Shown here piece after piece: positions 1,062 through 40,099 of a stretch of DNA of 64,000 bases. The translations under genes were made by a program, and so were the position numbers. A model generated the notes under the pieces. It had not been told where the DNA came from. It ran no database searches and saw nothing but the letters and a program-made list of their open reading frames with translations. The first letter of the stretch is position 1. Every line of letters starts with the position of its first letter. The DNA is taken from assembly GCF_000482505.1 (NCBI RefSeq), contig NZ_AXVL01000018.1, positions 1 through 64,000 on the forward strand, given 5' to 3'. Source of the stretch: Leptotrichia trevisanii DSM 22070 (GTDB lineage Bacteria; Fusobacteriota; Fusobacteriia; Fusobacteriales; Leptotrichiaceae).

Positions 1062-1628
1062 CTATACCACTTCCTTTTCTACTTTTTTTATTTCTTTTGT
1101 TAATTTTGCTATTTCAGTTTTCAACAAATCCATTTCAGACTTTATTTCTGTTATCCTTTCCTCCGTTTCAGTTATGTCAAAACCTAAATTTTCAAATTCT
1201 TCCTTTTCTTCCTCCTTATTTTCCAGTTCTTTTTTTAATTTGATATACTCCTGCTGTTTTTTATATCTTGTATCTTTTAAATATTGTAATTTCTCAGCCT
1301 TATCCTCAATCCAGGTGTTATTCTTATTGTCCCAAGTGCTATATGGATTTGGCTTTTCAATGGTTTTTATCTCTCCATGTTCCAAATATTGACCATCTGT
1401 CAAAACTATAATTCCAGCTTGAACCTGCTCTGATATAGTCATCTCTCTTACTTGTCCATCTTCGACAATAGGATTCTTTATTTCGGTATAAGAAATATAA
1501 TTTTCTCCCTCTATATATTCGCTACAATATTTTAATTTATCAGCTTCAAACTCTTCTTGTGATGGTGCTAAATATATTCCCATCAACTTTCCATTTTTAT
1601 CATATAAATATATTTTAAATCCTTTCAT
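1062..1628 (-). CDS. Phage protein with C-terminal coiled coil (tail-fibre-assembly-like)
   Basis: 188 aa. The N-terminal 100 residues are globular (KIYLYDKNGKLMG, then a WDNKNNTWIE motif). The C-terminal 80 residues are a charged coiled coil rich in Lys and Glu. Small proteins of this layout, with a W-x-x-x-x-x-W-like motif before a helical tail, occur next to fibres in many prophages and are often called fibre assembly or DUF4376-like; I cannot assign a family firmly. It abuts the endolysin gene and follows the recombinase/fibre locus across a 233-bp gap holding a 17-bp inverted repeat. Confidence 0.5.
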   Translation of the reverse strand: MKGFKIYLYDKNGKLMGIYLAPSQEEFEADKLKYCSEYIEGENYISYTEIKNPIVEDGQVREMTISEQVQAGIIVLTDGQYLEHGEIKTIEKPNPYSTWDNKNNTWIEDKAEKLQYLKDTRYKKQQEYIKLKKELENKEEEKEEFENLGFDITETEERITEIKSEMDLLKTEIAKLTKEIKKVEKEVV

Positions 1629-1661
1629 TTCTGTTTCTCCTTTCGATTTTAATTCTGTACT

Positions 1662-1845
1662 AATTTGGGAATTTGTACGAATTGTTATTGCATTTCAAAA
1701 AATTCAATGCCCATTTTTAGGGACTTTGAGTCAATTTTATTTTGGGACAACTTTAATTTTTTACCAAATTGTTGAAATCAACAAAATGCTTTAAGTCAAT
1801 AAAATTAGCAAATAAATTTTCAAAATCTGTACAAATTCCCAAATT
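1662..1845. repeat. 17-bp perfect inverted repeat flanking a 150-bp gene-free segment
   Basis: AATTTGGGAATTTGTAC at 1662-1678 is the exact reverse complement of 1829-1845. The intervening segment has no gene but contains a smaller palindrome, TTGTTGA-aa-TCAACAA (1769-1784). The pair lies between the stop of the tyrosine recombinase gene and the start region of the 188-aa gene. It could be a recombination site pair, an invertible regulatory segment, or the base of a long RNA stem. Confidence 0.7.
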
Positions 1846-1861
1846 TATCTTAATTTTTATG

Positions 1862-2815
1862 CTAAAATCCTGCTTTTTTACGGATTTCTAGTAGTTTATT
1901 TTTTCTATCTTTTGCAGTAGTTTTCTTGATGTAATGTTTCTTTGTAACATCTATTCCAGAATGATTTGCAAATTCACTTGCCAAGTCAATTCCAGCACTA
2001 TTTGCAATAAGATTTATTGATGTTTTTCTCAAACTGTGTGGATATAGATTATCTATTCCTACAAGTTTTCCTATTTTTCTAACTCGATCTCGTATAGTTG
2101 ATTTACTCATTTGCTTAAACACTCCGCTGTATCTAGTAACAAATAAGTATTCTATGTTGTCTTTCCTACATTTTAACCACTCCCTTATTAAATTTACTGT
2201 GTCTTCAAATATTACAAATTCCACAATTTTCTGTTCCTTTTCCACAATTCCCGTGATTATCCCATTTTCCAAGTCGATATTTTCCAACTTTATTGACTGT
2301 AACGCACTAATTCTACAAGCTGTATCAATAATCAGATTAAAAATTATTCTGTCCTGCAAATCAAATTTCTTTTCCATATCCATTTTGATATTTATTTCAA
2401 TTACTTCTTTGTTACTCAAATAATAACTATTTCTCCGCTTTTCTGTATCGGTTACTTTCAGTCTGTCCAATTTGTCCCGGAACGGATGAACTGATATTAA
2501 ATTCCTTTTGACTGCCCAAATATAGAAGCTAGATATAGCCGTCAATTTATTATTGATTGTCTGTGCATTATTCCCACTCACTTCCCTGCAATATCTTATA
2601 TACCGCTCCAGCACACTCACAATGATTTTCAGCGTATCTTTACTAAGCAAGTAACGATTATTTTCATACTTCTTGATATACTCAACAAACTGTTTCATAT
2701 TGTTGAAGTATGTCTTGTAAGTAGTGTTTTTTGTTGCCTCGTTCTTTGCTATACAGCTGTTCAGATACTCCACATAAATTTGTGCATTTCTTCCAGTGAT
2801 TACTTCTAATTCCAT
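1862..2815 (-). CDS. Tyrosine recombinase beside the tail fibre (candidate fibre-tip invertase)
   Basis: 317 aa with an N-terminal SAM-like core-binding region (about 10-120) and a C-terminal catalytic domain. The catalytic set is complete: R168 (TACRIS), H260 and R263 (PHSLR), H285 (ANHSG), Y295 (KKHYIK). The start has a good SD (AGGAG) and sits next to a 10-bp-stem hairpin. This is not the integrase, which is at 39 kb beside the attachment site. It lies between the lysis cassette and a pair of convergent fibre tips, the position expected for an invertase that switches fibre ends. Activity on that locus is inferred from arrangement only. Confidence 0.85.
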   Translation of the reverse strand: MELEVITGRNAQIYVEYLNSCIAKNEATKNTTYKTYFNNMKQFVEYIKKYENNRYLLSKDTLKIIVSVLERYIRYCREVSGNNAQTINNKLTAISSFYIWAVKRNLISVHPFRDKLDRLKVTDTEKRRNSYYLSNKEVIEINIKMDMEKKFDLQDRIIFNLIIDTACRISALQSIKLENIDLENGIITGIVEKEQKIVEFVIFEDTVNLIREWLKCRKDNIEYLFVTRYSGVFKQMSKSTIRDRVRKIGKLVGIDNLYPHSLRKTSINLIANSAGIDLASEFANHSGIDVTKKHYIKKTTAKDRKNKLLEIRKKAGF

Positions 2816-2827
2816 TTTTTCACTCTC

Positions 2828-2853
2828 CTATAATATTTTTTCTAATATTATAG
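2828..2853. other. Perfect hairpin between recombinase start and silent fibre tip
   Basis: CTATAATATT (2828-2837) pairs with AATATTATAG (2844-2853) around a 6-nt loop. It overlaps the recombinase leader (start at 2815, minus strand) and ends two bases before the first codon of the orphan tip reading frame. Possible roles are recombinase binding, control of recombinase expression, or a cruciform at the inversion boundary. Confidence 0.6.
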
Positions 2854-2854
2854 A

Positions 2855-3160
2855 ATGGAAAATTTATCTGAAATTTGGAATCTTATTTTCTTCGGAAAAT
2901 TGGAAGAATGGACAGAACAAGGGGTATACATTCCTTTTTCAAAGAAATTCACTAAAATTAAGATTGCATATACAGCACAAAGAAATGTTAATAATGCTGC
3001 ATACGGCTATGAAGAATATACTTTATCCAAAAACAATTTTAAGTTAGTAAGTACCGAACATACCCTAGCTTACGTGAAAGAAGATTCTCAGTTTTTGTAT
3101 TTTCAAATAGTATCGAATACAAATGTAAATGATAACTATGCTTACATTTATGCAAAATAG
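2855..3160 (+). CDS. Orphan fibre-tip reading frame in opposite orientation (candidate silent alternative receptor-binding tip)
   Basis: 101 aa on the plus strand, against all neighbours. It reads like the end of a tail fibre: a short helix (MENLSEIWN), a strand-Gly element (LIFFG), then YIPFSKKF, which parallels the FKFPKPF strand of the expressed fibre tip. The ATG has no Shine-Dalgarno sequence and a stop lies 12 bases upstream in frame, so it is probably not translated as it stands. TGGAAAATTT at its first codons recurs inverted at 3499-3508 in the fibre gene in the same reading phase, so an inversion there would join it in frame. It could instead be an unrelated small gene. Confidence 0.55.
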   Translation: MENLSEIWNLIFFGKLEEWTEQGVYIPFSKKFTKIKIAYTAQRNVNNAAYGYEEYTLSKNNFKLVSTEHTLAYVKEDSQFLYFQIVSNTNVNDNYAYIYAK

Positions 3161-3224
3161 AAAATTTTATTAAGTTAAACTCTGATAACACGAACTTTTT
3201 TATTTTACAATCTATAATTTGTGC

Positions 3225-3947
3225 TTAAAATCCTATTGCAATCCAGCAGAAAATGCTCCCAGCAAAATCTTTTCCGAATCTTGCCCAAGCCTTGAACTCT
3301 GAGTTCGAGGTTGGACTAACTGCTACGCTTCTAACTCCACCTCCGACATCGTTAGCTGTTATAGCCCAGCAAGCGTTTGGAAAAGGTTTAGGAAATTTAA
3401 ATGAAGCTCCATTTTCGTTTGAATTTTCAGGAACTTCGTTTCTTCCACATTGGATTATGATATTTCCTATTTTCACGAAGTTGTTTTCAGAACTGAACAA
3501 ATTTTCCAATTTGTCCGAAAGTCCAATATTCGTAATATCCACAAATTTAGTAATATCAAAACTCGTACTTGAGTGATTTTGTATACACTTGTATATTTTC
3601 CCATCTGTCAAATCATTTATATACCATTTTCCAGCTTCTTTATTTTCAACTTTACTTATATACCCACCTAATGTTTGCCCTATCGCTTGTTTCCAAGTTT
3701 CAGCATCTATTGCATTTCCTGTTTCTGTACCCAATTTTACAATTCCCTCTTTTTCCTTTGTTGCGTTGGAAGTCTGATTATCAAAGTGTTCCAACAGTTC
3801 ATACACTTTCATAAAATTCCTTGAAACTTTTCTTAAATCAGCGACTGTATCTAATTGAAACAGTTCAAATAATTCATTTTGAGTAGTTGCAGGTATAAAG
3901 GTATTTTCATTTATATTTTTTATTAAATCTAGTGTTGTTTGTTTCAT
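3225..3947 (-). CDS. Tail fibre / receptor-binding protein with gp53-like C-terminal tip
   Basis: 240 aa from the preferred start. An ATG at 3962 also exists, but GGGAG six bases upstream of the ATG at 3947 makes MKQTTLDL the likelier start. The N-terminus carries NENTFIPATTQNELFELF. The centre has the fibre repeat ATKEKEGIVKLGTETGNAI, and the last 95 residues (IIQCGRNEVP, FKFPKPFPNACWAI, FCWIAIGF) match the tail-fibre gp53-like C-terminal fold that touches the receptor. It is the last structural tail gene and converges on the orphan tip. Its end (from about codon 151 of the longer frame) is the part that would be swapped by inversion. Confidence 0.8.
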   Translation of the reverse strand: MKQTTLDLIKNINENTFIPATTQNELFELFQLDTVADLRKVSRNFMKVYELLEHFDNQTSNATKEKEGIVKLGTETGNAIDAETWKQAIGQTLGGYISKVENKEAGKWYINDLTDGKIYKCIQNHSSTSFDITKFVDITNIGLSDKLENLFSSENNFVKIGNIIIQCGRNEVPENSNENGASFKFPKPFPNACWAITANDVGGGVRSVAVSPTSNSEFKAWARFGKDFAGSIFCWIAIGF

Positions 3948-3962
3948 TTTTTCTCCCTTCAT

Positions 3963-4772
3963 TTAATATACAATTTTTATGTCGTACCAAATTGGTATAA
4001 CTTCATAAATCAATTCCAGCCAGTAATCTAAATATTCTTTATCTACAGTGCTAGAATGAAAATCTACAATATACTGAAAGTTATTTTTATCATTCGTTAT
4101 TGTTACATTGTCGTTATAGATAAAATATAGTTTCATTGTATCTTTGAAATTCTGTAAAGTGTTTGCACGTCTTAAAATACGTTTGGAAATGATTCTGTTT
4201 ATTTTAAAAATTGTTGATAAATTTTTGCTTGATATTAATTTATAATGTTCTTCAAATTCTTCTAAAACTTCATTTCTTGCTGTTATAAATCTTCTGTTTT
4301 TTACCAATGTTCCTATTACAAATTCCAGTGACTTTAATTCAAGATCCGCAAAATGAAATACATCTTGTATAAGATTTGAATTTCTGAATATTCCCGGAAG
4401 GGACTTTATCATACTGTTGTAATAATCGTTTTTAGCAAGATTATATATAACATCAGCATAATCGTTATCATACGAAAAAAGCAATGGAAACCTTTTCTCA
4501 GTAATTTTTTGTGTAAAGTTTACGTAATCATCCAAACCAACAAAAAATGAAAAATCACTCACTTTATAATTTAACAATTCTGATACTGTCATTTCGGACA
4601 ATTTATTTGTATGTTTTACAAAGTTCATTGCTTTAGGATTACTTTTAATCGAAGAAAAATCATTATTTCTACCATCATTTACAAAATCTTTTACATAGAA
4701 ATTTGATAATTCATTTATATTAAAATTATTTTTTATATATTCAATTGACTTCTGGTGTACATTTTTTGCCAT
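3963..4772 (-). CDS. Putative baseplate/tail protein upstream of the fibre
   Basis: 269 aa, mostly helical with no obvious repeats or membrane segments. I do not recognise a specific motif. Position after the baseplate J protein and before the fibre suggests the slot of P2 gpI or Bacillus XkdU (fibre attachment to the baseplate), but similarity is not visible by eye. It overlaps the preceding gene by one base (TAATG) and abuts the fibre gene, so all three are probably translationally coupled. Confidence 0.5.
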   Translation of the reverse strand: MAKNVHQKSIEYIKNNFNINELSNFYVKDFVNDGRNNDFSSIKSNPKAMNFVKHTNKLSEMTVSELLNYKVSDFSFFVGLDDYVNFTQKITEKRFPLLFSYDNDYADVIYNLAKNDYYNSMIKSLPGIFRNSNLIQDVFHFADLELKSLEFVIGTLVKNRRFITARNEVLEEFEEHYKLISSKNLSTIFKINRIISKRILRRANTLQNFKDTMKLYFIYNDNVTITNDKNNFQYIVDFHSSTVDKEYLDYWLELIYEVIPIWYDIKIVY

Positions 4773-7622: not shown

Positions 7623-8557
7623 TATTTTTTGCCTTTCTTAGCTGTATTTTTGTTGCGTTTTGAATTTTTTGTTTTTTTACCTTTATTATTTTTATCTTCT
7701 TTCTTACCTTTTCCATCTTTTTTATTATTCTTATCCTTGCTTCTACCTTTTTTAGCTGATTTATCTTGATTATTTTTCTCCTGCTTGACAACATACTGCA
7801 ATAATCCGTATTTCTTAATATTTTCGTTATCTTTCGCTGTATCAACTTTATTCATTTTTTCATCATCACCATCAACTACAATTATGCTATTTTTCATATT
7901 TTCAAAACTTGATGTATAACTTGCGTCTTTGATAAAATTGAAAATATTCACATACCCATTTCCAACATATATTTGATATTCTTTAGGCTGTGTTTGCCCA
8001 TCCAAGTATTTATCACTATTTCTTTTGACAAAATGAAAAGCATTATCCTTAAAATAAAAATGCCAGTTTTCGCCTTTATCCTCTTTTATCGTTTCTATAA
8101 TTTTTTTTATTATATCCGCAATAGTTTCCTTGTAATAATACTCATCTATTTTCACATCACAGTTTTCTATAGTTCCGACAGGCATATCAAATTCTTTGAG
8201 CATTTTTTTTACGCATTCTCCTGCTGGAAGTTTATCAAACTGAAATATTTCAGAAATACGTGATATATAAAAACTTGGATCATACGCTGTAAACTTAGGA
8301 CCTTTATTATTAACACTTATTTTAGGGATAATTCCTTGAAATATCAAAGTATCGGCATCATCATAAAGTTCTACAAAATAAGCTCCCTTATCCAAATCAA
8401 TCGTATGATACGGCATATTCTCCCTATAATTGTAAGCCAGTTCAAATTCCATTTGTGCCGTGATGTTGTCAATACTGCTTGAAAGCTGAATATTATCCTT
8501 TACAATACTTGTCAAATCATATCTTTTCTCATCAGGATCTGTTACAATTATTTTCAC
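7622..8557 (-). CDS. Baseplate hub protein XkdQ-like, N-terminal part (split gene)
   Basis: 311 aa. Residues 1-255 resemble the XkdQ / gpD-type hub fold: MKIIVTDPDEKRYDLTS, ELYDDADTLIFQGIIPKI, then KLPAGECVKKMLKEF and WHFYFKDNAFHFVKR. The last 55 residues are a Lys/Asn-rich tail ending KKGKK. The usual C-terminal strand domain is missing and is found in the next reading frame. In PBSX-type tails this protein is the hub ring to which the spike attaches. The poly-Lys region repeats units such as NNKGKK, also present in the downstream half. Confidence 0.75.
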   Translation of the reverse strand: MKIIVTDPDEKRYDLTSIVKDNIQLSSSIDNITAQMEFELAYNYRENMPYHTIDLDKGAYFVELYDDADTLIFQGIIPKISVNNKGPKFTAYDPSFYISRISEIFQFDKLPAGECVKKMLKEFDMPVGTIENCDVKIDEYYYKETIADIIKKIIETIKEDKGENWHFYFKDNAFHFVKRNSDKYLDGQTQPKEYQIYVGNGYVNIFNFIKDASYTSSFENMKNSIIVVDGDDEKMNKVDTAKDNENIKKYGLLQYVVKQEKNNQDKSAKKGRSKDKNNKKDGKGKKEDKNNKGKKTKNSKRNKNTAKKGKK

Positions 8558-8560
8558 GTT

Positions 8561-9247
8561 CTATCCACTCACCTTATAAAACAATTTTTCTTCTGGGTTA
8601 TCGGCTTCTGTAATATCACTAAACTCTAGATATTCCTCAAATTCAATTTCAAAGTTCAATGTTCCTGTAACGTCAAAATTGGCTTCAAATTTATTTACAG
8701 TTGCCAAAAAATTTAAGTCCACAGGATTTAAGATTGATGTTAATGTTCCTTTACCCAATTTTCCAACTAAAATTAGTCGTATAGGCTTATCTGACATCTC
8801 TAGTGATTTAAACAGTAAAAAAGTAGTAAAAGGATCTAACAAATGGTGTGTTGCAAAATTATATTTCTGTTCCGGAATAATAGAAGAAAAAGCCAAAGAC
8901 TGCAATTTATTCCTATTTTTCAACTTTAAAATGCCATTTACTGTATCAATGCTTTCCCAGCCACCAATACTTTTAAATTTTAATTCACTCGGCGGAACAG
9001 GGAATAAATAAAACTCTTTTAGTTCTGTCATTTTATCATTTATTTGAGAAAAAATAGGATTTTGCTCACTCACGCTGTTCATCTTATCTGATAGCATCTT
9101 TTTGGCTTTTTCGATAAAATTGTTATCTCCTAATTTTTGATTTAAAAAATCAACTGTATTAAAGGAATTGCTTCCTAAAAAATTCAAATCCTTATAATTT
9201 ACACTCTCATCAAATTTTATATACACTTTATAGTCCAATAACCCCAT
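8561..9247 (-). CDS. XkdP-like tail/baseplate protein without visible LysM
   Basis: 228 aa. The motif FPVPPSELKFKSIGGWESI followed by a strand-rich region (KLKNRNKLQSLAFSSIIPE, KPIRLILVGK, FDVTGTLNFEIEFEEYLEF) is typical of the XkdP family that bridges tape measure and hub. Many relatives end in a LysM domain; none is seen here and the protein stops after the strand domain. It sits three bases after the tape-measure gene and upstream of the hub gene. Confidence 0.7.
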   Translation of the reverse strand: MGLLDYKVYIKFDESVNYKDLNFLGSNSFNTVDFLNQKLGDNNFIEKAKKMLSDKMNSVSEQNPIFSQINDKMTELKEFYLFPVPPSELKFKSIGGWESIDTVNGILKLKNRNKLQSLAFSSIIPEQKYNFATHHLLDPFTTFLLFKSLEMSDKPIRLILVGKLGKGTLTSILNPVDLNFLATVNKFEANFDVTGTLNFEIEFEEYLEFSDITEADNPEEKLFYKVSG

Positions 9248-24798: not shown

Positions 24799-25452
24799 TC
24801 AATGAATACCTATACTTGAATTTGCCTCTAATATACTTTTATCAATATCCCTATTTACATACTGCAAATAAATTAAAGTATTTTTCAGACTCTTATGTCC
24901 TAAAAACTTTTGTACTTTTATAATATCCACATTCTCACTAAGTAAATGAACGGCCCTAGTATGTCTAAAGGTATGTGGTTTAACCCAATCATATCCAAGT
25001 ATGTTCAACCCGTATTTTTTTATCATATCGTATGCTCCATATCTTTGATATATTTTTTTACCTTTTGCTGTTACTCTTGTAAAGAGCTTATCTTTTTTGT
25101 CCAGTTTATATTTATTGATGTGTACGAGCATCATATTCATTAATTCGTTACTTATGATACATTCTCTTTTCGCTGCTTTTCTTTGTTTTGAATTTACAAG
25201 TTTAACCTTATTGTATTTCAAATCAATATCTCTTATATCAAATGATAACGCCTCACTTATTCTTGCTGCTGTTTCAAACAAAAATCTGACTAACATTTTG
25301 TGAAAATCATTATGTATCATTTTTTCTAATTCAAAATATTCCTGTATTGTTAAATATTTTATTTCATGTTCTACATAATAGTTTTTTTTATTTATTATTG
25401 TTACTCCAGATTGATAATTGTTTGTTATGTTATAATTATTTACAATTTCCAT
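24799..25452 (-). CDS. Short tyrosine recombinase (catalytic domain only)
   Basis: 217 aa. The catalytic set is complete: R64 (AARISEAL), H160 and R163 (PHTFRHTR), H186 (LGHKSLKN), Y195 (TLIYLQY). The N-terminal core-binding domain is nearly absent; only about 30 unrelated residues precede the catalytic fold. Small recombinases of this kind are often found just before the terminase genes of phages, with unknown role. It overlaps the zinc-ribbon gene by 17 bases. Confidence 0.85.
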   Translation of the reverse strand: MEIVNNYNITNNYQSGVTIINKKNYYVEHEIKYLTIQEYFELEKMIHNDFHKMLVRFLFETAARISEALSFDIRDIDLKYNKVKLVNSKQRKAAKRECIISNELMNMMLVHINKYKLDKKDKLFTRVTAKGKKIYQRYGAYDMIKKYGLNILGYDWVKPHTFRHTRAVHLLSENVDIIKVQKFLGHKSLKNTLIYLQYVNRDIDKSILEANSSIGIH

Positions 25453-25675
25453 CTATAATATCCTCTTTTCTCAGTTTTATAACTACCTTTTGCCCACATA
25501 TTTCTCTGTGCCTGTTATCTCTCCGTTTACTATTGCATACTATACAAATACCTTCACCATCTGCATAAATTTCTGATTTACTGCCTTTTATGTGTATAAT
25601 TTTTCTATCCTTTTGTTTTTCTATAGCTAAAACAGCTCCGCATTTTGGACAAGTAATTTTTCTTTCCCTAGACAA
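25436..25675 (-). CDS. Small zinc-ribbon protein between two recombinases
   Basis: 79 aa. CPKCGAVLAI and CIVCNSKRR supply two CxxC pairs, forming a zinc ribbon; the rest is basic. It overlaps recombinase genes on both sides (8 and 17 bases), so all three are translated as one unit. Probably a DNA- or protein-binding partner of the recombinases; no family name assigned. Confidence 0.65.
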   Translation of the reverse strand: MSRERKITCPKCGAVLAIEKQKDRKIIHIKGSKSEIYADGEGICIVCNSKRRDNRHREICGQKVVIKLRKEDIIDGNCK

Positions 25676-26576
25676 GTAACCTTCTCCCCTTTCTGTTTAT
25701 TTGTTCCTGCATTGCTTTCAAATCTCTTGATTGATATATTTTTAATGTTTCCATATTTTCAATTCCCAGATTTTGTGCTATTGTATTTAAATCAATACCA
25801 TTTTTTATGCAGTCGATTGTATAAAAATGTCTTAAATTATGTAAAAATAGCTTGCTCTTTTTTATCCTTGCAGCTATTCCAACCTTTTCAAACACAGAGG
25901 ATAATGCCCTTTTCTGTACAGTTTTATCTTGCAATGTAATAAATAATTTCTCATTTGTTAAATATAACTGTTTTCTGTATTTCCGAAATTCCCGACAAAT
26001 TTTAACTATGGTTGCTGGAATCAGAACTGTCCTAATTTTGCTTCTCTTCCCAACTACTTCCACCTTTCCAGAAATAACATCATCAATATTTAATTGCAAT
26101 GCTTCTGATATTCTCAATCCTGTACTTGCTAGTAATTGAATCAAAATAGTGTTTCGGAATTTATAAAATTTATTTTCCTGTTTATCAATAACTCGTAAAA
26201 TTCTTTTTATTTCATGAATTGACAACTCTTTTTTATAAAATCGATCATAAATCCTTATCTTGATTTCAGGTAAATGTATTTTAATTCTAGCATTTTTTAC
26301 CTCAACAACTGGTGCAGTAATATTTTTCTCATAGTACAAAAACTTCAAAAAACTTCTTATTGATTCAAATTTAGTGTTAATTGTCTGTCCCTTATTTTTG
26401 GAATTTTCCAAATTTTGTTTGTATTTGGACATTGTTTGACTATTTAAATCATCTACATTTTTTATTTTCATATCGCTTAGAAATTTTTTTACATTTGTAA
26501 CATACGTTTTTATTGTATTTTCACTATGATATTTCTTACGCAAATATTCTGTAAATTCATATTGTAATTCAATCAA
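25668..26576 (-). CDS. Tyrosine recombinase, one catalytic His replaced
   Basis: 302 aa: N-terminal SAM-like domain (YEFTEYLRKKYHSENTIKTY) and catalytic domain with R155 (TGLRISEAL), H246/R249 (HNLRHFYT) and Y281 (LKIYQSRD). The usual LGH has become LGI (I272), so the second His/Trp position is missing. Activity may be reduced or the protein may act as a DNA-binding partner. First gene of the recombinase / zinc-ribbon / recombinase cassette. Confidence 0.83.
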   Translation of the reverse strand: MIELQYEFTEYLRKKYHSENTIKTYVTNVKKFLSDMKIKNVDDLNSQTMSKYKQNLENSKNKGQTINTKFESIRSFLKFLYYEKNITAPVVEVKNARIKIHLPEIKIRIYDRFYKKELSIHEIKRILRVIDKQENKFYKFRNTILIQLLASTGLRISEALQLNIDDVISGKVEVVGKRSKIRTVLIPATIVKICREFRKYRKQLYLTNEKLFITLQDKTVQKRALSSVFEKVGIAARIKKSKLFLHNLRHFYTIDCIKNGIDLNTIAQNLGIENMETLKIYQSRDLKAMQEQINRKGRRLLV

Positions 26577-39022: not shown

Positions 39023-40099
39023 ATGAGTGTAAAAAAAGATGAAAAACGTGGAACATTTTATTGTGAATTTCGTTACCGAGATCAGATGAATATTTCCCGA
39101 AGGAAGAAAAAAAGAGGATTTAAAACTGCAAAACAAGCAAAAGAATGGGAAATAAATTTTTTGGCCAATATTAATTTAAAGGCTGAAAACATAGTTTTTA
39201 AAGAACTTGTGAGATTATATATGGGCGATGTTAAAAGCAGAATAAAAGTAAGCACTTATAAAAGAAAAGAAAAAATAATAAATGATAAAATAATTCCATA
39301 TTTTAGTGAAATTTTAATTGGTGATATTACTCCATTAATGATAAGAAATTGGCAAAACAAAGAATTAGAAAATAACTATAAGAAATCTTATTTTTTAACA
39401 ATACAAAAAGAATTGAGTGCTATTTTTAATTATGCAACAAAATTTTATAATCTTCGTGAAAATCCTTTAATTAAAGCTGGATTAGTTCATGATTCTCCTT
39501 TACTTCAGGAAAAAGAAGAAATCAAAATCTGGACTCCAAATGAATTTAATGTTTTTATTGAAAATGTTCATAATATTGAATTAAACACAATCTTTAATTT
39601 ATTGTACTATACAGGAGCCAGAATTGGGGAAATTTTGGCTTTAAATTCAAAAGATATAGATTTATATACCAACACCATAAAAATTAACAAGAGCTATCAG
39701 AAAATTGAAAATAAGGAGTATATTACAACTCCCAAAACAAAATCATCTATTCGTATAATAAAAATTCCAAATTTTCTGTCTGAGATTATAAAAAAATATT
39801 TAGATTCTATTTATGATAAAAATATAGAACGAATATTTACAACAAGTAGAACCAATATACATCGTTGTAAAAATTTTATAGTTAAAAAATATAATTTAAA
39901 AAATATTAGACTACACGATTTTAGGCATAGTCATGCAAGTTTACTTTTAAATGAAGGTGTAAATATCGTTGTTATTTCAAAACGACTTGGCCATGAAAGC
40001 ATAAAAATGACTTTAGACACTTATGCCCACTTAATGGACGGGAATGAAGATAAACTGATAAATATACTTGATAATATAAAACAAGATTCTCAAAGTTAA
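39023..40099 (+). CDS. Prophage integrase (tyrosine recombinase)
   Basis: 358 aa. The N-terminal arm-binding domain (RGTFYCEFRYRDQMNISRRK, KKRGFKTAKQAKEWE) is AP2-like. A SAM-like core domain (about 60-165) and a catalytic domain follow, with R in YTGARIGEIL, HDFRHSH, LGHESIKMT and Y in LDTYAH. It ends 180 bases from the attachment core, with tandem arm-like repeats between. Confidence 0.92.
   Translation: MSVKKDEKRGTFYCEFRYRDQMNISRRKKKRGFKTAKQAKEWEINFLANINLKAENIVFKELVRLYMGDVKSRIKVSTYKRKEKIINDKIIPYFSEILIGDITPLMIRNWQNKELENNYKKSYFLTIQKELSAIFNYATKFYNLRENPLIKAGLVHDSPLLQEKEEIKIWTPNEFNVFIENVHNIELNTIFNLLYYTGARIGEILALNSKDIDLYTNTIKINKSYQKIENKEYITTPKTKSSIRIIKIPNFLSEIIKKYLDSIYDKNIERIFTTSRTNIHRCKNFIVKKYNLKNIRLHDFRHSHASLLLNEGVNIVVISKRLGHESIKMTLDTYAHLMDGNEDKLINILDNIKQDSQS

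Follow-up and report, generated by a model that had tools for sequence, protein, structure and literature searches.

A probable tail-fibre tip switch next to a tyrosine recombinase in a Leptotrichia prophage, and its counterparts in Fusobacteriales phages

Introduction

Can a Leptotrichia prophage exchange the tip of its tail fibre, and is the tyrosine recombinase encoded beside the fibre gene the enzyme that would do so? The question arose from an earlier note on the sequence analysed here (the window, positions 1-64,000 of NZ_AXVL01000018.1, from a low-GC genome), which is part of a prophage. The note had proposed that a short inverted repeat, shared by a fibre gene and an orphan frame on the opposite strand, allows the intervening DNA to invert. 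We estimate a probability of about 0.92 that the prophage carries a two-state tail-fibre switch, inverted by the recombinase at 1862-2815 and swapping tips on a constant stem.

Results and Discussion

Organisation of the fibre locus

The late region of the prophage lies on the minus strand and runs from baseplate genes through the fibre gene, the tip segment and the recombinase to a coiled-coil gene and endolysin-type genes. The fibre gene (3225-3962, minus strand) is made up of a stem of 152 codons (3507-3962, minus) and a current tip of 93 residues (3225-3506, minus), which carries a Gp53-like C-terminal domain (PF21882, E=2e-11). Translation probably starts at the second ATG, near position 3947 (MKQTTLD...), which is preceded by AAGGGAG; this is a small correction to the fibre coordinates. 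Facing the fibre gene is an orphan frame on the plus strand (2855-3160) that encodes a silent alternative tip of 100 amino acids counted from Glu-Asn-Leu; the stops of the two convergent frames are 64 bases apart. The orphan has no Shine-Dalgarno-like sequence ahead of its ATG, and this ATG, which overlaps the crossover core, is its sole expression-type signal.

The core TGGAAAATTT is present at 2856-2865 (plus), on the recombinase side at the start of the orphan, and as an inverted copy at 3499-3508 (minus) within the fibre gene, so that the two copies bound a tip segment of 653 bp (2856-3508). Both cover Glu-Asn-Leu codons in frame. Inversion of 2856-3508 in silico joined the stem to the other tip and gave an open fibre of 252 residues, compared with 245 as found, and the tip sizes of 102 and 95 codons put forward previously are consistent with the 100 and 93 residues counted from Glu. 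The convergent layout, the repeat, its phase, the in-frame fusion and the missing Shine-Dalgarno sequence, all claimed in the earlier note, were thus borne out by the coordinates.

The note had also named its own weak point, namely that a 10-bp repeat could occur by chance, and this was justified. We counted three occurrences of TGGAAAATTT in the window against 2.2 expected, and four inverted 10-mers in 1862-3962 against 5.4 ± 3.4 in shuffled sequences; for a 10-mer shared just by the start of the orphan and the junction zone of the fibre, the chance is about 4%. Since the 10-mer by itself is at chance level, the case for inversion rests on relatives of the locus. The site in the fibre gene does extend beyond 10 bp, as it lies inside the quasi-palindrome GGACAAATTGGAAAATTTGTTC (ACAAATT-GGAA-AATTTGT). 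At the recombinase-side site these palindromic arms are only partly kept, which counts against the tip switch. The earlier reading, in which a tyrosine recombinase inverts the tips at a short repeat, is supported by the comparisons below. A further palindrome-like sequence, CTATAATATTTTTTCTAATATTATAG (2829-2854), separates the start of the recombinase gene from the tip site, and similar sequences occur in L023, L024 and L029.

Structure prediction for both tips had been suggested. An AlphaFold2 (AF2) model of the orphan tip was beta-rich, with a pLDDT of 86, while the fibre prediction (pLDDT 48) was too poor to use. Fold searches with the orphan in PDB and BFVD placed phage tail proteins among the top matches, none of them significant (best E values of 0.084 and 0.011, respectively), and these weak matches count against the tip switch.

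Swapped tips and inversions in related prophages

Nine distinct loci (L020, L021 and L023-L029) share the layout of the window. Each has a fibre gene and, converging on it, an orphan tip. The core T[G/A]GAAAATTT is kept in place at both positions, with Glu-Asn-Leu always in frame 0 at the core and a core-to-core span of 561-684 bp. Variants of the core are matched within a locus: L023 and L029 have TAG at each of their two sites, and the remaining loci have TGG. Fibres with the stem of the window are 53-71% identical to the window fibre overall; the stem hardly varies as far as SDK(L/V)ENL, beyond which the tips are mostly unrelated. Homologues of the current tip of the window fibre occur as the orphan tip in L024 and as the expressed tip in L023 (38% amino acid identity). 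For the orphan tip of the window we found a single homologue, likewise silent, in a genome of the same genus (L029, 42% amino acid identity), and no fused copy in IMG/VR or phage records, which counts against the tip switch.

The earlier note had proposed that related prophages be searched for swapped tips. These were found, along with near-identical copies that differ by inversion alone. The silent tip of L023 is the expressed tip of L024 (99% amino acid identity) and the silent tip of L024 is the expressed tip of L023 (100%). Similarly, the silent tip of L025 corresponds to the expressed tip of L028 (96%), whose own silent tip resembles the expressed tip of L027 (62%). Two prophages of a single genome (G005) share one pair of tips, each expressing the tip that is silent in the other, with a 557-bp tip segment inverted at 99.5% identity between direct flanks and recombinase regions that are 93% identical. 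In Cetobacterium sp. 2A, three records of one prophage, compatible alike with separate insertions or with states of one prophage, are 99.9-100% identical over ~15 kb apart from inversions of 1001, 1286 and 2277 bp. This prophage has seven tip frames with a common site, TTAGAGAATTT (Leu-Glu-Asn-Leu), and each record places a different one of the seven on one stem. Comparisons with the named phages Funu1 and phiRTG5 also contain tip inversions. Because near-identical (99.9-100%) copies in one strain differ solely by inversions at the core, the arrangement does invert at such sites in relatives. It is thus in the relatives, not in this strain, that inversion was seen; by extension, the copy in this strain would be active. 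An automatic survey for the ENL motif suffered from overlapping matches, by which some loci were missed or mis-parsed, and it gives no overall frequency.

We then considered whether silent tips are maintained. The dN/dS ratio was 0.04 for the silent tip of L025 against the expressed tip of L028, 0.10 for the silent tips of L020 and L025, and 0.30 for the orphans of the window and L029, a pair with synonymous sites near saturation. The silent tips are thus under purifying selection; frames that are never expressed should degenerate. On this reading the window has the smallest form of a system found widely among Fusobacteriales phages, with two tips where other members have up to seven.

The recombinase and its distribution

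Just outside the tip segment lies a complete gene for a tyrosine recombinase of 317 amino acids (1862-2815, minus; PF00589, E=4e-23), as had been stated previously. The catalytic residues R168, K193, H260, R263, H285 and Y295 (full-length numbering) are invariant across an alignment of 16 sequences. The protein contains PF00589 and a SAM-like core-binding domain only, with the N-terminal arm-binding domain absent, and its closest solved structures are XerA, XerC-like and XerD proteins. Relatives at E<=1e-20 were present in 15 of the 60 genomes searched, its own included. They are 41-87% identical, occur in the tail regions of many phages and are found in most of 29 IMG/VR loci, some of which duplicate genomes obtained by other routes. 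In Fusobacteriales phages the gene typically separates the fibre from the endolysin genes, and orphan tips point towards the fibre. Among named relatives, the nearest come from Fusobacterium and Cetobacterium. Its usual downstream neighbour, a coiled-coil tail-region protein (1062-1628, minus, in the window), has relatives likewise placed in the loci of window type and in some others.

The genome contains another prophage (contig C24, L083, 1873-2965) from which the recombinase and the orphan are missing, together with half of a second invertible segment discussed below. The fibre of this prophage has a fixed tip after ..SDKLENL that resembles the current tip of the window, which makes it a natural locked form of the tip switch.

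Other arrangements were also observed. Tip-like frames flank the recombinase on both sides in L031, L034 and L063; in L031 and L034 inverted repeats of 29-31 bp are present in this region, and the second segment was looked for there and not found. In L035 (G047) the recombinase (7657-8625) lies outside any recognised tail region and is followed by an inverted repeat similar to that of the second segment, spanning about 158 bp.

Mechanism of tip exchange and alternative explanations

We propose that the recombinase would pair two inverted short sites, one within the fibre gene and the other at the start of the opposite-strand orphan, and invert the 653 bp between them. The constant stem would then be joined in frame to the alternative tip through the Glu-Asn-Leu codons, and the former tip would become the silent convergent frame. 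Exchange of the tip presumably alters the surface receptor bound by the phage, and the tips may thereby set host range. Judged by its association with the tips, the prophage's own recombinase very probably runs the switch.

The tip segment might instead be inverted by another enzyme acting in trans, with the adjacent recombinase a bystander. Several tyrosine recombinases are present in the window, and the candidates would be the host Xer proteins, the separate full-length integrase of the prophage (39023-40099) and two adjoining tyrosine-recombinase genes (24799-25452 and 25668-26576, both minus). Moreover, inversion in a bifidobacterial phage without an adjacent recombinase has been reported (PMC6109161). 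However, the adjacent recombinase is a conserved companion across the loci of window type and in Fusobacterium and Cetobacterium, and the C24 prophage has lost recombinase and orphan tip together; we regard an enzyme in trans as improbable. The 217-amino-acid member of the pair at 24799-26576 apparently lacks its N-terminal domain.

Another possibility is that the repeat is fortuitous and the orphan a decayed duplicate tip that never inverts. Single-sequence statistics favour that explanation, the 10-mer alone being at chance level, but a core, phase and layout common to nine loci, inversions and swapped tips in relatives, and purifying selection on the silent tips led us to reject it as very unlikely. 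Still less credible is a role for the recombinase as the integrase of the prophage, with the repeats forming part of its attachment site. This would fit the label 'integrase' that the protein bears in Funu1, phiRTG5 and PHROG, but the gene is located within the late tail region, the window has the separate integrase at 39023-40099, and the recombinase is carried by phages with other integration enzymes: phiRTG5 has a Mu-type transposase and Funu1 a serine-recombinase-like gene at its end. We therefore retain the tip switch operated by the adjacent recombinase.

Relation to known inversion systems

Exchange of a tail-fibre C-terminus on a constant stem is common to this locus and to Mu Gin, P1 Cin and p15B Min, which are serine invertases with other site and enhancer requirements. 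No serine recombinase adjoins the tips here; the neighbouring enzyme is a PF00589 protein with tyrosine-recombinase catalytic residues. In the R64 shufflon, the tyrosine recombinase Rci inverts several cassettes to give alternative C-termini of a plasmid pilus adhesin. The array of several cassettes is like that of Cetobacterium, whereas the R64 product is a pilus adhesin and not a phage fibre, and the sites are different. Bacillota relatives, in Brevibacillus phage Sundance and in phage-like plasmids of B. velezensis and L. reuteri, have recombinases 35-39% identical to that of the window, which lie beside tape-measure or transglycosylase-type genes with no annotated fibre-tip array.

The closest parallel is the Rin shufflon of Bifidobacterium prophages, a published phage fibre shufflon with a tyrosine recombinase (Mavrich et al., 2018; PMC6109161). 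Both systems place a tyrosine recombinase beside a constant receptor-binding N-terminus, both phages have a separate integrase, and inversions occur between related prophages in each. The interchangeable C-termini of Rin, at 95-100 amino acids, are comparable to the tips described here, and its sites are very short (11 bp) and asymmetric, as are those of the window (PMC6109161). At our locus a XerD-like, armless recombinase distinct from the integrase adjoins the variable tips, a constant stem and signal-less C-terminal frames join in frame at nine loci, and relatives have inverted at the sites. On these features, and not on homology of the recombinases, the tip switch appears to be of one kind with Rin in layout and mechanism. 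The two differ in phylum and in crossover, which is TTCCCTAACCC in Rin and TGGAAAATTT over Glu-Asn-Leu here; moreover, the window has one silent tip, unlike Rin as described there (PMC6109161). What is new relative to Rin is therefore the phylum, the site, the number of tips and a second segment, in a kind of system that is already known. We found no description of inversions in phages of Fusobacteria, Leptotrichia or Cetobacterium in the literature covered, in which subscription journals are sparsely represented.

Many phages of Fusobacterium, Cetobacterium and their relatives can probably change receptor-binding tips without mutation, and their hosts are important in the mouth and gut. Tip switching bears on how phage host range is read and on assembly and annotation, where the tips count as hypothetical proteins and the recombinase goes by the name integrase. 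The system is also compact, its site being about 20 bp long, and suited to studying inversion bias in an armless tyrosine recombinase.

A second invertible segment beside the recombinase

Directly past the recombinase stop, between this gene and the next, lies a noncoding, hairpin-forming segment (1662-1845) bounded by terminal inverted repeats AATTTGGGAATTTGTAC, with the distal copy at 1662-1683 (plus) and the copy adjoining the recombinase stop at 1824-1845 (minus). Equivalents of about 140-220 bp are found downstream of the recombinase in many Fusobacteriales loci, and their repeats are matched inside each locus and often differ from locus to locus. The segment is inverted between L023 and L024 (91% identity), L024 and L029 (94%) and L048 and L049 (91%), as well as among the Cetobacterium copies (100%, 168 bp) and in several pairs with Funu1 or phiRTG5. 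It folds over its whole length in most loci, with z to about -6 or lower, and shows some compensatory changes, for which the repeats themselves account in part.

In the window, the arms of the second-segment repeats match those of the tip site (ACAAATT...AAATTT) and the centres differ (CCC versus GGA). One enzyme could thus serve both segments without mixing them, and the recombinase of the tip switch probably inverts the second segment too. Three loci (L026-L028) keep the tip layout with the second segment absent; tip switching can therefore probably proceed without it. Sigma-70-type promoter scores were not clearly above those of shuffled sequences in either orientation, and an ordinary promoter switch was rejected on this basis; an Rfam search of 1600-4000 in the window returned no family. 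A more tentative idea, which we think somewhat doubtful, is that one recombinase drives two independent inversions kept apart by their crossover centres, with the conserved hairpin (about 150-200 bp) a regulatory element tied to tip switching, which would be an RNA hairpin, an autoregulatory site or a folded DNA substrate. The part of the Rin report consulted has no mention of a second noncoding invertible segment (PMC6109161), and a noncoding invertible hairpin beside the recombinase is not described in the portions of the shufflon papers examined. In L058 (7951-8137) the second segment seemingly contains a nested inversion, in which the outer parts have one orientation and the inner part the other, and these parts meet near CAATAAGTC.
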